A DNA stretch of 64,000 nucleotides, taken from NCBI GenBank assembly GCA_002704915.1, contig PAIP01000032.1:1-64000 (forward strand), given 5' to 3'. The notes beneath the pieces are model-generated. The model saw only the letters and a program-made list of their open reading frames with translations. It had not been told where the DNA came from and did not search any database. How positions within the stretch are numbered: the first letter of the stretch is position 1; each line of letters opens with the position of its first letter. Shown here in pieces: positions 5,655-11,056 of the stretch. The position numbers and the translations under genes are program-made. Origin of the DNA: Parvularcula sp. Lineage in GTDB: Bacteria > Pseudomonadota > Alphaproteobacteria > Caulobacterales > Parvularculaceae.

Positions 5655-5690
5655 GAAAGGCGCTTGGTTCCCAGGCGCCTTTCTCTTTTG
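5655..5690 (+). terminator. Intrinsic terminator of rpmI-rplT
   Basis: GAAAGGCGC at 5655-5663 pairs with GCGCCTTTC at 5675-5683, extended inward by two further pairs, and is followed by a T-rich stretch (TCTTTTGG). It lies 28 bases after the rplT stop codon. Confidence 0.85.
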
Positions 5691-5845: not shown

Positions 5846-6160
5846 ATGATCCGGACCCTTGCTATCGCCGCCTCTGTTTTTGCTGTCGCTCAGTCGGCGG
5901 CCTCCGCCGCCGAAATGGTGGTCGAATACGACCGCACCCGTCTCAATGACGCCGCCTATGTGGAAGAGCTGTATGCAGAGCTCGAATCCGCCGCCAAATC
6001 CGTCTGCAAGAAGGAGCTGGCCGGTTCCCCAATCATCGTCTCTACGATGAGAAGCTGCATAGAGACGACGCTTGCGGAAAGCGTTGAAAAGATTGGCGCC
6101 CCGCTTTTGACCGCCTATGCCGATGGCGCGGAAATCCAGCAACTGGCCTCGACCCAGTAA
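5846..6160 (+). CDS. UrcA family protein
   Basis: The protein has 104 residues from the ATG at 5846, chosen because AAAAGGA sits 8 bases upstream; a TTG 18 bases earlier is less likely. A signal peptide covers about residues 1-22 (ending ASA-AE). The mature part, with VVEYDRTRLNDAAYVEELYAELESAAKSVC and a second Cys in MRSCIETTL, matches the UrcA family of small secreted proteins with two conserved cysteines, common in Caulobacterales and Sphingomonadales. Function is unknown. It is flanked by terminators on both sides, so it is monocistronic. Confidence 0.8.
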   Translation: MIRTLAIAASVFAVAQSAASAAEMVVEYDRTRLNDAAYVEELYAELESAAKSVCKKELAGSPIIVSTMRSCIETTLAESVEKIGAPLLTAYADGAEIQQLASTQ

Positions 6161-6193
6161 GCTGACGCCTTCTCTCACCGGACCAAGCCATGA

Positions 6194-6227
6194 AGCGGGC
6201 CCTCGACAAGAGGGCCCGCTCTTTATA
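6194..6227 (+). terminator. Intrinsic terminator after the UrcA gene
   Basis: AGCGGGCCCTC at 6194-6204 and GAGGGCCCGCT at 6210-6220 form a perfect 11-bp stem with a 5-base loop, followed by CTTTATAT. Confidence 0.85.
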
Positions 6228-6244
6228 TGGAGAGATCGCAAGCA

Positions 6245-6357
6245 GTCAGGATCCGCTTTCATGCCGAAATTTGAGTTCTTTTTTGGGAGCGCTCATTGAA
6301 CGGGTGACCGAAGCGGCGTCTGCCGATAAGCGTCATCCGAGGATGGCGCTTTTTTTG
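6245..6357 (+). promoter_or_regulatory. Phenylalanine attenuator of the pheS-pheT operon
   Basis: The stretch holds a Phe-rich leader peptide (6261-6299) and two mutually exclusive hairpins. The terminator is AGCGTCATC (6329-6337) paired with GATGGCGCT (6342-6350), a CGAG loop, and a run of seven T (6350-6356). The antiterminator is CGGGTGAC (6301-6308) paired with GTCATCCG (6332-6339), which removes the 5' arm of the terminator. A ribosome stalled on the Phe codons (6270-6284) would leave 6301-6308 free and allow readthrough. One that reaches the stop codon at 6297-6299 would cover it and permit termination. A possible bulged stem with 6246-6255 may complete the 1:2 pairing. The mechanism is known from E. 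coli pheM-pheST; here it is inferred from sequence. Confidence 0.82.
6261..6299 (+). CDS. Phe-rich leader peptide of the phe operon
   Basis: A 12-residue open frame reads MPKFEFFFGSAH and then a TGA. Four of twelve residues are Phe, three of them consecutive. AGGA at 6248-6251 can serve as ribosome-binding site 9 bases before the ATG. The peptide is not expected to act as a protein; its translation senses charged tRNA-Phe. It plays the role of PheM in enterobacteria, although the sequences are unrelated beyond the Phe codons. Confidence 0.82.
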   Translation: MPKFEFFFGSAH

Positions 6358-6382
6358 TTTTAGCGACGGGAGACCGGACCCC

Positions 6383-7459
6383 ATGTCCGACATTGAAAAT
6401 CTGGAGCGCGATCTTCTCGCCAAAATCACCGCCGCTGAAACCGGCGCGGCGCTTGAAGACGTGCGCGTCGCCGCACTCGGCAAAAAGGGCGTCGTTTCCG
6501 AGCGGATGAAAACGCTCGGCAAGATGAGCCCGGAAGAGCGCAAGGAAATGGGACCGGCGCTCAACGGCCTGAAATCCCGTATCGCCGATGCGATCGAGGC
6601 GAAGAAAACCGAGCTTGAAGAGGCGGCGCTCAATGCGCGGCTGGCCTCGGAAAAAATCGACGTCACGCTGCCGATCCGCCCAGAACCGAAAGGCAAGATT
6701 CACCCCGTCAGTCAGGTGACGGAAGAAATCATTGCGATCTTCTCCGCCATGGGATTCGACGTCGCTGAAGGCCCGGACATCGAAGACGATTTTCATAACT
6801 TCACGGCGCTGAACTTCCCGCCCGACCACCCGGCGCGGGAGATGCATGACACGTTCTTCTTCGAGCCGAAGGAGGACGGCAGCCGCATGCTGCTCAGGAC
6901 GCATACCTCGCCGGTGCAGATCCGCACGATGATGAGCCAGAAACCGCCGATCCGGATCATCATTCCGGGCCGCACCTTCCGCTGTGACTCGGATCAGACT
7001 CACACGCCCATGTTTCACCAGGTCGAAGGCCTCGTCATCGACAAGGAAACCCATATGGGTCATCTGAAAGGCACGCTCGAGGCCTTCGTCAAAACCTTTT
7101 TCGAGATTAGCGATGTGAAAACACGCTTCCGGCCGCATTTCTTTCCGTTCACGGAGCCTTCGGCGGAAATGGACGTGCAGTATGAGCGAGTCGGAAATGA
7201 AGTGCGTTTCGGCCAGGGCGACAAATGGATGGAGATTCTCGGCTGCGGCATGGTGCATCCGAATGTGCTCCGCAATTGCGGCCTCGACCCGGATGAATAT
7301 CAGGGCTTCGCCTGGGGCATGGGCGTCGACCGCCTCGCCATGCTGAAATACGGCATTCCCGATTTGCGCGATTTCTTCGCCGCCGATGCGCGCTGGCTCG
7401 AGCATTACGGATTCGACGCCGCCGACCAGCCGAGCCTCTGGGCGGGATTGAGCAAATAG
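6383..7459 (+). CDS. pheS: Phenylalanine--tRNA ligase alpha subunit
   Basis: This 358-residue protein has the usual PheS layout: an N-terminal coiled coil (about 1-90) that binds tRNA, then the class II catalytic core with motif 2 ([21 protein letters not shown], about 195-215) and motif 3 ([20 protein letters not shown], about 312-331). It charges tRNA-Phe together with PheT as an alpha2-beta2 enzyme in the cytoplasm. It follows the attenuator hairpin by 26 bases and is the first gene of a four-gene operon. Unusually, pheT does not follow directly: two other genes lie between. Confidence 0.98.
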
Positions 7460-7469
7460 GAGGCTTCAC

Positions 7470-7853
7470 ATGACCTACTACATCGCGAAAACCGTTTCCG
7501 GCGGCTTTGACGACGTGATCGCACGCGTGACGGAAGCGCTGAAAGCCGAAGGCTTCGGCGTGCTCACCGATATCGATGTCGCTGCGACCATGAAGAAGAA
7601 GCTAGACGTGGATTTCCGGCCCTATCGCATTCTTGGCGCCTGCAACCCGCAAATGGCGCTTAAAGCGCTGACCGCTGAGAGCAAGATTGGCGTCATGCTT
7701 CCCTGCAACGTGATAGTTCAGCAAACGGATGATGGCGTTGAAGTCGCTGCGGTCGACCCTGTCGCTTCCATGCAGGCGGTTGATAATCCCGGCCTCGCCG
7801 AAATCGCCGGCCCCGTTAAAGACGCGCTGAAAAGGGTTGTTGAGGCGCTCTGA
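7470..7853 (+). CDS. DUF302 domain protein inside the phe operon
   Basis: This 127-residue cytoplasmic protein matches the DUF302 pattern: an N-terminal segment MTYYIAKTVSGGFDDVIARVTEALKAEGFGVLTDIDV, then YRILGACNPQMALKAL and GVMLPCNVIVQQ with two conserved cysteines near residues 58 and 79. The family is a small alpha/beta fold of unknown function, sometimes linked to metal or redox stress. It starts 10 bases after pheS and its stop overlaps the next start by one base (TGATG), so it is translated with the phe operon. Placement inside the operon is unusual. Confidence 0.88.
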   Translation: MTYYIAKTVSGGFDDVIARVTEALKAEGFGVLTDIDVAATMKKKLDVDFRPYRILGACNPQMALKALTAESKIGVMLPCNVIVQQTDDGVEVAAVDPVASMQAVDNPGLAEIAGPVKDALKRVVEAL

Positions 7854-8485
7854 TGACCAAGCCGGAAAAACGTCTTTCCTTCAATTTCGAAACCGTCGGC
7901 TCCATCGCGGCGATGGTCATCGGCGCCTGCGCGCTGTTCGTCGCCTGGGATCAGGCGCAGATCATGCGCAAACAGCAGCATGCGAGCGTCCTGCCCGCGG
8001 TCAGCATCACCAGCGGTTTCTCGACAGAGCCCGAAGGCTACGCCATGCGCGTCGCCATCAAGAATGACGGCATCGGCCCCGCCATGATCGAAAGCGCGGA
8101 GTTGGTCGTTGACGGCGCGCCGGTTCGCGACTGGGCGGATTTGCGCGACCGCCTGTTGCCGCCGCAATTGCATGAAGGGTTTTCGTCGAGCCTCGATTCC
8201 GCCATCGGCATGCTGGCGGCGGGCGAAAAAAGCGAGGCGATCCTCCTCCTCTGGGACCGCAACGAACAAACCCGCGCCGGCTTTGAAGCGTTGAAAGCGC
8301 GCGTCTTCGCCGCCGACACGGCTGAGACTTATTTCGGCGTCTGCTACTGCTCGGTCTTTGAAAAATGCTGGGTCGCGGGGCCGGAAAATGCGTCCCGGCC
8401 AAAACCTGTCAAAAAATGCGAAAGCGCCGGCGAGGATGTCGTCGCGCGCCTCCTGCAAACCATTTCGGAAGATGAAGCGTCATGA
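7853..8485 (+). CDS. Membrane-anchored protein of unknown function in the phe operon
   Basis: This 210-residue protein has one membrane segment at about residues 16-33 (VGSIAAMVIGACALFVAW), followed by a soluble domain rich in beta-strand patterns (LPAVSITSGF, YAMRVAIKNDGIGPAMIESAELVVDG) and a C-terminal part with several cysteines (CYCSVFEKCW, KKCES). I do not recognise a named family. The layout resembles small bacterial N-anchored proteins with an immunoglobulin-like domain. Its start overlaps the DUF302 stop by one base and its stop overlaps the pheT start by four (ATGA), so it is translationally coupled to both. Confidence 0.75.
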   Translation: MTKPEKRLSFNFETVGSIAAMVIGACALFVAWDQAQIMRKQQHASVLPAVSITSGFSTEPEGYAMRVAIKNDGIGPAMIESAELVVDGAPVRDWADLRDRLLPPQLHEGFSSSLDSAIGMLAAGEKSEAILLLWDRNEQTRAGFEALKARVFAADTAETYFGVCYCSVFEKCWVAGPENASRPKPVKKCESAGEDVVARLLQTISEDEAS

Positions 8486-10905
8486 AGTTCACCCTGTCCT
8501 GGCTGAAAGAACATCTCGAGACGAACGCCAGCCTCGATGAGATCGTCGAGACCATGGTCGCGGTTGGCCTTGAGGTTGAAGAGGTCGAGAATCCGGAAGA
8601 GCGCCTTTCAGCCTTCACCATCGGCGAAGTTCTTTCCGCAGAGCCGCATCCCGATGCTGACAAGTTGCAAGTCTGCAAAGTGGCGACCAGGGATGGCGAG
8701 ATGCAGATTGTCTGCGGCGCGCCCAATGCGCGGGCCGGGATCAAGGTCGCCTATGCGCCTGTGGGCGCCTATGTGCCGGGCATTGATGTCACGCTCTCGA
8801 AAGCGAAAATCCGCGGCGTCGAGAGCCACGGCATGATGTGTTCCGTGCGCGAACTTGAATTGGGCGACGATCATGACGGCATTATCGAGGCGCCGGTTTC
8901 GGCAAAGGTCGGCGAGCCGGTGGCCAAGGTCATGGGCGCCAATGACCCGGTGATCGATTTCGAGGTAACGCCGAACCGCCCCGATACGAACGGCGTCGAT
9001 GGCGTCGCCCGCGACCTCGCCGCAGCCGGAATCGGCAAGTTCATTTCGCCCGAGCCGAAGCCGGTCAAGGGGGCGTTCCCCTCGCCGCAAAATGTCGTTC
9101 TCGACTTTCCGGCGGGCGCTGAAAACGCTTGTCCCGTATTCGCCGGGCGTTATGTGCGCGGCGTTAAAAACGGCCCCAGCCCGAAATGGCTGCAGGACCG
9201 GTTGCGCGCCATCGGCCTTCGCCCCATCAGCGCCCTCGTCGATATCACCAACTATATGTCATACGACCGGGCGCGCCCACTGCACGTCTTCGACGCCGAC
9301 AAGCTGAAAGGCGTCATTCGCGCGCGTCTCGGTAAGGAAGGCGAAAAATTCCTCGCCCTCGACGGCAAGGAATATGTAATCGACGAGACCATGACCGTGA
9401 TCGCCGACGACAATGGCGTCCTCGGTCTCGGCGGCGTCATGGGCGGCGAGGATACGGGTTGCACGGAAGAAACCAAAAACGTGTTCATCGAATGCGCCTA
9501 TTTCGACCCGTTGCGCACGGCGAAAACCGGCCGCAAGACGGGCATAAATTCCGATGCGCGCTACCGGTTCGAGCGCGGCGTCGATCCGGATTTCATCCTG
9601 CCGGGCATGGAGATGGCGACGCAGCTCGTCATAGATATGTGCGGCGGCGAGCCTTCAGAGGTTGTGCTGGCGGGCGAAATTCCGCAGACGGACAAAACCG
9701 TTCTCTTTCCGCCGTCCGAGGTCAAGCGCCTCACCGGCCTCGATGTGCCGCCCGAGGCCTGCGAACAGATTCTGTCGGCGCTTGGCTTCACGGTGCGCAA
9801 AAGCGACCCGTGGCAAGTGGATGTTCCGTCCTGGCGGCCCGATATTGAAGGCAAGGCCGATCTCGTTGAGGAAATCGCCCGGATCACGGGGTTCGACAAA
9901 CTTCCTGCGGCGCCGTTGCCCATGCTCAAAGCGGTCGAAACGCCGAAGCTGACGGCGGGCCAGGAGCGCCGCCGTATGGCGCGCCGCGCGCTTGCCGGCC
10001 GAGGCCTTCTGGAAGCCGTGACCTGGTCGTTCCTCGATCAGAAACACGCCGAGCTTTTCCTGAGCGAAAGCGAGATCAAGGCGAAAGGCCTCATTCTCGC
10101 TAATCCCATTGCTTCCGACCTTGGCGTTATGCGTTCGTCGCTTTTGCCGAACCTTATCGCCGCGCTTCAGCGCAATGCTGATCGCGGCCGAGAGGATCTT
10201 GCGCTCTTTGAAGTCGCGCCGATTTACGGCGGCGATCAACCCGAGGACCATGCGAACGCCGCTGGCGGCGCCCGGTTGTCCGATCCGCAACGCCACTGGC
10301 AGGGCGCTGCGCCGAAAGCGGACGCGTTCACGGTGAAGGCTGACGCCATCGCAGCGCTGGAAGCGGCTGGCGCGCCGGTCGCCAGCCTGCAAACCAGTGC
10401 GGATGCGCCGGACTATTTCCATCCCGGCCGGTCCGGCGTTCTGCGCCTTGGTCCAAAGGCGCTCGCCCATTTCGGCGAGATCCATCCGCGGGTCTTGAAG
10501 GCCATGGATGTGGACGGGCCTGTTCAGGGCTTCGAGGTGTTTTTGGACCTGATCCCTGAGCCGAAAAAGAAACCGGCGAAGACCCGTCCCGCGCTCGACG
10601 CATCGGAGCTCCTGCCGCTGTCGCGCGACTTCGCCTTTGTCGTCGACGACGCCGTCGCCGCCGAGGCGCTCTTAAAGGCTGTGCGCGGGGCGGAGAAAAA
10701 GCTCATTGCCGATGTCAGCCTTTTCGACGTTTACCAAGGCAAGGGCGTGCCCGAGGGCAAGAAATCCCTCGCCATCGAAGTGGTGCTTCAGCCGCGGGAA
10801 AAAACCCTGACGGACGAGGAAATTGAGGCCATCTCCGCGCGGATCGTCGCTCAGGTGGAAAAGGCGACCGGCGGGACGCTGAGGGGCTTAGACCCAGGGG
10901 CTTGA
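8482..10905 (+). CDS. pheT: Phenylalanine--tRNA ligase beta subunit
   Basis: This 807-residue protein is of normal length for PheT. It shows the N-terminal tRNA-binding EMAP-like domain (about 40-150; VCKVATRDGEMQIVCGAPNARAG), the B3/B4 editing domain (about 215-380; RLRAIGLRPISALVDITNYM), the B5 domain (about 405-475; RPDIEGKADLVEEIARITGFDKLP), a catalytic-like core and the C-terminal ferredoxin-fold anticodon-binding domain (LPLSRDFAFVVDD to the end). It pairs with PheS. Start codon overlaps the preceding gene by four bases. A terminator-like hairpin overlaps its stop codon. Confidence 0.98.
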   Translation: MKFTLSWLKEHLETNASLDEIVETMVAVGLEVEEVENPEERLSAFTIGEVLSAEPHPDADKLQVCKVATRDGEMQIVCGAPNARAGIKVAYAPVGAYVPGIDVTLSKAKIRGVESHGMMCSVRELELGDDHDGIIEAPVSAKVGEPVAKVMGANDPVIDFEVTPNRPDTNGVDGVARDLAAAGIGKFISPEPKPVKGAFPSPQNVVLDFPAGAENACPVFAGRYVRGVKNGPSPKWLQDRLRAIGLRPISALVDITNYMSYDRARPLHVFDADKLKGVIRARLGKEGEKFLALDGKEYVIDETMTVIADDNGVLGLGGVMGGEDTGCTEETKNVFIECAYFDPLRTAKTGRKTGINSDARYRFERGVDPDFILPGMEMATQLVIDMCGGEPSEVVLAGEIPQTDKTVLFPPSEVKRLTGLDVPPEACEQILSALGFTVRKSDPWQVDVPSWRPDIEGKADLVEEIARITGFDKLPAAPLPMLKAVETPKLTAGQERRRMARRALAGRGLLEAVTWSFLDQKHAELFLSESEIKAKGLILANPIASDLGVMRSSLLPNLIAALQRNADRGREDLALFEVAPIYGGDQPEDHANAAGGARLSDPQRHWQGAAPKADAFTVKADAIAALEAAGAPVASLQTSADAPDYFHPGRSGVLRLGPKALAHFGEIHPRVLKAMDVDGPVQGFEVFLDLIPEPKKKPAKTRPALDASELLPLSRDFAFVVDDAVAAEALLKAVRGAEKKLIADVSLFDVYQGKGVPEGKKSLAIEVVLQPREKTLTDEEIEAISARIVAQVEKATGGTLRGLDPGA

Positions 10906-10980: not shown

Positions 10981-11056
10981 GCCGCTTTAGCTCAGCTGGT
11001 AGAGCACATCATTCGTAATGATGGGGTCACGTGTTCGAGTCACGTAAGCGGCACCA
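10981..11056 (+). tRNA. tRNA-Thr (anticodon CGT)
   Basis: The 76 bases fold as a full cloverleaf. The acceptor stem is GCCGCTT/AAGCGGC, the D stem GCTC/GAGC, the anticodon stem CATCA/TGATG with loop TTCGTAA (anticodon CGT, reading ACG), the variable loop five bases, and the T arm ACGTG-TTCGAGT-CACGT. The CCA end is encoded after discriminator A. A possible promoter is TTGCGG (10932-10937) with TATGAC (10955-10960), 17 bases apart. Confidence 0.97.

Follow-up and report, generated by a model that had tools for sequence, protein, structure and literature searches.

The closest described system to the locus reported here is pheM of E. coli, a Phe-rich leader whose RNA can adopt either terminating or non-terminating structures and which lies beside rplT and before pheS and pheT (PMC5371410). 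Leader-peptide attenuation of other aminoacyl-tRNA synthetase genes is reported for Streptomyces trpS and leuS (PMC1262725). Among alphaproteobacteria, attenuation by a leader peptide is reported for trpL-trpE(G) of S. meliloti (PMC7298713), and an ilv leader and a leader coding sequence before trpS are reported for C. crescentus (PMC4117421). Titles and abstracts among the matches listed in our literature search contain no pheST attenuation in alphaproteobacteria; the comparative surveys Vitreschak 2004 and Lopatovskaya 2010 lie outside that scope.

The window analysed here is a stretch of 64,000 nucleotides from Parvularcula sp. (contig PAIP01000032.1, assembly GCA_002704915.1). The region in front of its pheS gene is very probably a ribosome-mediated transcription attenuator of pheST, as judged from its sequence and that of its relatives. 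It has in common with E. coli pheM-pheST the Phe-rich leader, the alternative structures, the rplT neighbour and the pheS/pheT target, but in the window rplT and the leader are set apart by an UrcA-like gene and a hairpin, and the core of the switch also occurs in a form that has no Phe leader. With S. meliloti trpL and the C. crescentus ilv and trpS leaders it shares the mechanism class and the bacterial class, whereas the amino acid and the target differ. The Streptomyces trpS and leuS attenuators act on the same kind of target gene, but in another phylum and for other amino acids.

The Rfam model Phe_leader (RF01859) scores over its cut-off in none of the 28 genomes of the window's genus, in agreement with an earlier note on this DNA, made from the letters alone, which had called the leader unrelated in sequence to that of E. 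coli. RF01859 is also absent from the gathering matches of the window and from the seven weak Rfam matches over positions 6180–6400, all of which fall far below their cut-offs. Since the model is not matched above cut-off, the resemblance to pheM of E. coli seems to be convergent. In 14 control genomes, RF01859 matches two at all (E. coli and L. lactis) and one over the cut-off. A similar match in G021 (E 9.2e-4, below the cut-off) was rejected, as it looks like the ordinary terminator region of an unrelated gene. Over the whole window, Rfam gives a single gathering match, to a tRNA (10981–11053). A T-box riboswitch was likewise discarded, with none among the gathering matches of the window and none up to E 10 over 6180–6400.

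The leader ORF, as read from the window sequence, agrees to the base with the earlier note, which had described 12 codons, four of them for Phe. It runs on the forward strand from the ATG at 6261 to the TGA at 6297–6299 (ATG CCG AAA TTT GAG TTC TTT TTT GGG AGC GCT CAT TGA), with Phe codons at 6270 (TTT), 6276 (TTC), 6279 (TTT) and 6282 (TTT). A short leader with several cognate codons, four out of 12, thus stands before the target gene, and pheS starts 83 nt 3' of the leader stop. The downstream genes had been correctly named: pheS comes next and pheT two genes later (Table 1). Between them (7470–8485) lie a DUF302 gene and a 210-residue ORF with no Pfam or NCBIfam match. Upstream, one hairpin was computed at 6194–6220, and another was seen by eye after rplT (5656–5682). 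A consensus scan of the window found no sigma-70 promoter before the leader. The candidate -35 element, CCTCGACA, is present upstream of the leader in all nine loci of the Phe-leader form described below, and a putative promoter is placed at 6201–6229. In three of these loci (L012, L013 and L019), the candidate -10 region (TTTTTTATGG) lies only about 10 nt 5' of the leader ATG, so that their leader may be nearly leaderless, as is reported of S. meliloti trpL (PMC7298713).

Table 1. Features of the pheST leader region and its neighbouring genes (positions in the window)
Feature	Position	Strand	Basis and remarks
rplT, ribosomal protein L20	5271–5627	+	PF00453, 4.1e-48
UrcA-family small secreted protein, between rplT and leader	5846–6160		TIGR04433, 4.7e-12
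Candidate leader promoter	6201–6229	+	CCTCGACA (6201–6208) and TATATG (6224–6229); overlaps the G+C-rich hairpin 6194–6220
Shine-Dalgarno-like AGGA	6248–6251	+	9 nt 5' of leader ATG; read from sequence
Strand 1	6249–6266	+	Pairs with 6301–6321 if the leader is untranslated; MFE fold, P(6256–6313) 0.987 in free RNA
Phe leader peptide MPKFEFFFGSAH and stop	6261–6299	+	Phe-rich leaders at the equivalent place in eight more genomes
Strand 2, antiterminator 5' arm CGGGTGAC	6301–6308	+	Pairs with 6332–6339; counterpart arm in 31/31 loci
Inner hairpin of antiterminator	6314–6325 (6314–6317 with 6322–6325)	+	G+C-rich, four pairs, in the 2–3 spacer
Strand 3	6328–6339	+	Common to antiterminator (6332–6339, GTCATCCG) and terminator (6328–6337)
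Strand 4, terminator 3' arm	6342–6351	+	Terminator search; pairs with strand 3
Terminator U tract (U7/T7)	6350–6356	+	Read from sequence
pheS, phenylalanyl-tRNA synthetase alpha subunit	6383–7459	+	PF01409, 2.9e-104; PF02912, 9.8e-23
pheT, beta subunit, two genes beyond pheS	8482–10905	+	B3_4, tRNA_synthFbeta, FDX-ACB, B5 and tRNA_bind domains

Both helices proposed in the earlier note were recovered. The antiterminator, CGGGTGAC with GTCATCCG, consists of eight pairs, one of them G-U. The terminator has a 4-nt loop and the T7 tract, and was also found by the terminator search; its arms, given earlier as 6329–6337 and 6342–6350, can be extended to 6328 and 6351. Because both structures use 6332–6337, they are mutually exclusive, as had been claimed, so that the locus has the competing antiterminator and intrinsic terminator of an attenuator, and both are kept over the 31 loci of the family described below. 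The window contains 43 terminator-like sites (24 on the forward and 19 on the reverse strand), of which only this one is accompanied by a leader-like ORF with at least four Phe codons.

A translating ribosome shields about 12–14 nt ahead of its A site. The leader stop codon and strand 2 are separated by a single base, so a ribosome terminating there would cover strand 2. Constrained folding agrees with the ribosome-stalling geometry that the earlier note had proposed. When the RNA is free from 6284–6291 onward, the antiterminator forms (P 0.79–1.00), and once the free stretch starts at 6292 or beyond, the terminator forms (P 0.96 or more). Untranslated RNA folds into the 1:2 and 3:4 pairings, which amounts to termination (P 0.987). 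Before strand 4 is made, the 2:3 pairing forms with P 0.97–1.00 while strand 2 is free, and does not form when the free stretch starts at 6310. With RNA free from 6292 the terminator wins at equilibrium, so for a ribosome stalled at the last Phe codon 2:3 would have to form first in time.

We infer from this arrangement where the promoter lies, where ribosomes would stand and how the locus would respond to Phe-tRNA charging. Transcription would start between the UrcA-like gene and the leader, and a ribosome would translate the 12 codons behind RNA polymerase. With ample Phe-tRNA, it would reach the stop codon and cover strand 2, and the 3:4 terminator would form. With scarce Phe-tRNA, it would stall on the Phe codons at 6276–6284 and leave strand 2 free to pair with strand 3, aided by the inner hairpin, so that no terminator would form and pheS would be transcribed. 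If the leader is untranslated, strand 1 would hold strand 2 and the transcript would end. Low Phe-tRNA should thus raise the synthesis of PheRS.

Taken singly, the fold is unexceptional. The whole fold of the region has a z of -1.70, with 10 of 200 shuffles equally stable, and out of 1000 shuffles of the 2:3 duplex 77 are as stable in the window, 151 and 46 in its two nearest relatives and 60 in L005. The case is therefore carried by the comparative evidence. The window's genus comprises 28 genomes (25 with pheS) and its family 62 (57 with pheS); the nearest named relatives of the window, among the best 80 of 574, are Marinicaulis / Parvularculaceae. A covariance model of the 2-3-4 core was built from 20 loci. 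The underlying MAFFT alignment misaligned strand 2 in L006 and L014; the model was nevertheless built from it, and base pairs were for this reason counted by script. Strong matches (E 4.2e-8 or better) were found in 31 of the 62 family genomes, one in each, distributed over 24 of the 28 genomes of the window's genus and one of one and six of nine genomes of two others. Among 249 genomes of the order, the family included, there is no comparably strong match outside the family (best non-family E 1.1e-5).

All 31 matches lie upstream of pheS, at 18 to 2051 nt. rplT is found upstream of the core in 30 of them, and in the remaining locus (L230) the stretch covers only about 560 nt upstream. In eleven loci (L004, L009, L010, L015, L017, L022, L023, L025, L026, L008/L230 of G004 and L113/L233 of G020), the switch is more than 300–350 nt before pheS; it stands behind rplT or behind the leader, with other sequence before pheS. 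Strand 2 was placed at the best of 30 positions per locus; in every one of the 31 this lay within -27 to -31. Over these loci, the 2:3 pairing is formed in 244 of 248 cells and the 3:4 pairing in 243 of 248. The 11 loci outside the 20 of the model, whose discovery relied on a model that includes strand 2, have 87 of 88 cells paired in each helix. Two core positions vary: one is A-U, G-U or G-C, depending on the locus, in both helices; the second is G-C, G-U or A-U. Among 1000 shuffles of the 2:3 duplex, 0–14 are as stable in the 13 rplT-linked loci tested and 7–151 in the seven Phe-leader loci tested.

The attenuation interpretation of the earlier note is thus well supported by comparison with related genomes, and the conserved stems that it had said should be sought are present. 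Its expectation of Phe-rich leaders upstream of pheS in relatives holds in part: nine of the 31 genomes with the switch have one, with the same spacing between stop codon and terminator, and the other 22 have none; close relatives thus do not all share the leader. The rplT-linked sister form, strand 1 and the inner antiterminator hairpin are additions to that note.

In the 22 genomes of the sister form, the core follows rplT (e.g. L007, 1413–1475; L145, L137, L004), and a leader scan that finds all nine Phe leaders finds none here. The distance from the rplT stop codon to strand 3 is 63–67 nt in 13 loci, 97–109 nt in eight and 215 nt in one. In 19 of the 22, the rplT stop is followed 2–11 nt later by the start of a strand 1 complementary to strand 2, of several different sequences. 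Out of 300 shuffled spacers per locus, at most 16 attain its energy in 16 loci, and 35–102 do so in the other six. With strand 1 located just after the rplT stop, the sister form likewise possesses the elements of a 1-2-3-4 attenuator, in which the end of rplT takes the place of the leader, and the ribosome finishing rplT may be its reader. In longer rplT-switch loci (L018, 1418–1479; L025, 650–712; L010, 3401–3465), an extra hairpin, noted by eye, appears to sit between strand 1 and strand 2 and would leave the effective spacing unchanged. Two candidate leaders of this form were discarded: a TTG ORF in L011 (LSFFRPRPTPD), with two Phe and in one genome only, and a GTG ORF overlapping strand 2 in some loci (VTFHAEFD-like), a by-product of the conserved arm. 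In pyrBI-type attenuation, a ribosome close to the polymerase prevents the terminator and the signal is UTP. The rplT-linked form resembles this type, but its candidate reader is the ribosome finishing rplT rather than a UTP signal.

The presence of the same core behind rplT without Phe codons in 22 genomes could also mean that the core answers another signal, such as L20 or RNA polymerase pausing, and that the Phe codons merely tune translation of the leader. This is unlikely, given that the Phe-leader form lies 253–835 nt away from rplT (in the eight of its nine loci where rplT was found) and that the Phe codons sit where a stall would free strand 2.

The Phe-leader form, which we read as the ribosome-mediated attenuator, comprises the window and G025, G022, G013, G004, G023, G015, G001 and G020. 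Its geometry is fixed: in all nine genomes, the leader stops exactly 29 nt before the terminator arm (AGCGTCA). The leaders are 12, 23 or 31 codons long and start with ATG or GTG. All nine have Phe at codon -5 from the end; at codon -6, eight have Phe and L019 has Leu. TTT and TTC replace each other at both positions. Summed over the nine, Phe accounts for 44 of 171 codons, a figure that depends, as do the leader lengths, on the choice of start, since L012, L013, L005 and L230 have more than one in-frame candidate. The G+C-rich four-pair hairpin in the 2–3 spacer is present in all nine loci (-4.8 to -7.0 kcal/mol), and the corresponding spacers of the 22 others reach -2.3 kcal/mol or weaker. 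The switch lies 1.2 kb before pheS in L230 (G004, 563–622) and 2.1 kb before it in L233 (G020, 2241–2302); at these distances, pheST may not be the sole target, and the intervening sequence may be controlled too. The interval between rplT and the leader holds an ORF of 103–108 residues with a signal-like N-terminus in six of seven Phe-leader loci examined (absent in L003); three such ORFs were tested against families, of which two scored as UrcA and one had no match. ORFs similar to the UrcA-like one of the window in size and place are found in five more Phe-leader loci, as if inserted along with the new leader.

These regularities bear on the possibility that the hairpin is simply the end of the rplT/UrcA-like transcript and the Phe-rich ORF a chance reading of a T-rich stretch. 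The ORF of the window is indeed only 12 codons long and includes a T6 run, and 22 relatives have the hairpin without a Phe leader. The constancy over nine genomes of the Phe positions, with TTT/TTC exchange, and of the 29-nt distance from the stop argues against chance. In L012, L013 and L019, moreover, the Phe codons are spread over the leader rather than gathered in one T run, and separate hairpins are already available at 6194–6220 and after rplT. We regard this explanation as very improbable. Equally improbable is control of pheS translation by reinitiation or coupling, with the terminator as a constitutive partial stop. pheS does start 83 nt after the leader stop, and reinitiation after leader peptides is proposed in general (PMC4833913), but the leader and pheS are separated by a terminator of the intrinsic type, with U7, and all 31 loci retain a strand 2 complementary to the 5' arm of this terminator.

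Outside the family, the scan that finds all nine leaders within it found no Phe-rich leader before pheS in 115 alphaproteobacterial loci, 40 of which have a terminator-like site. These loci were drawn from the best 80 of 574 relatives, together with loci from the 191 of 193 class genomes that were matched (29 besides the window, nearest by pheS). Among 24 order genomes, stretches L160 and L162–L165, which have no recognisable pheS start, were dropped, as were loci with less than 130 nt upstream and the duplicate L192; other near-duplicates were retained.

A tree of pheS+pheT from 38 genomes places all nine Phe-leader genomes in a single fork of 24 rows (97/99), which also holds 15 rplT-linked genomes. 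Outside this fork are G002 and six genomes of another genus that have the rplT-linked form. Since rplT-linked genomes are also found outside the fork that holds every Phe-leader genome, the rplT-linked form is probably the older one, and the 2-3-4 core probably predates the Phe leader. The Phe-leader form requires four changes on the tree as drawn, only one of which is forced by well-supported branches. Its grouping as a single clade is rejected at an AU p of 0.003, for a group named after inspection and within a fork that is unresolved. A tentative account, for which the chances are somewhat under even, is an exchange of sensors, inside a single family, on a retained expression platform. In the older form, the ribosome finishing rplT would mask strand 1, and pheST would follow the translation of L20; in nine genomes, where the switch is at a distance from rplT, a Phe-tRNA sensor would have taken over, accompanied by a promoter-like motif and the inner hairpin. 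In general terms, the switching of sensors in attenuated genes has been described (PMC2965389).

The locus adds to the alphaproteobacteria a probable Phe-tRNA-dependent attenuator of pheST that seems to be independent of the one in E. coli. The sister form is the stronger point of interest, as it bears on how the sensor was acquired. Relatives that have the switch and no Phe leader would make it possible to test how an amino-acid sensor originates. They raise the question of whether regulation by a leader peptide arose from an attenuator that may have coupled the synthetase to the synthesis of ribosomal proteins.
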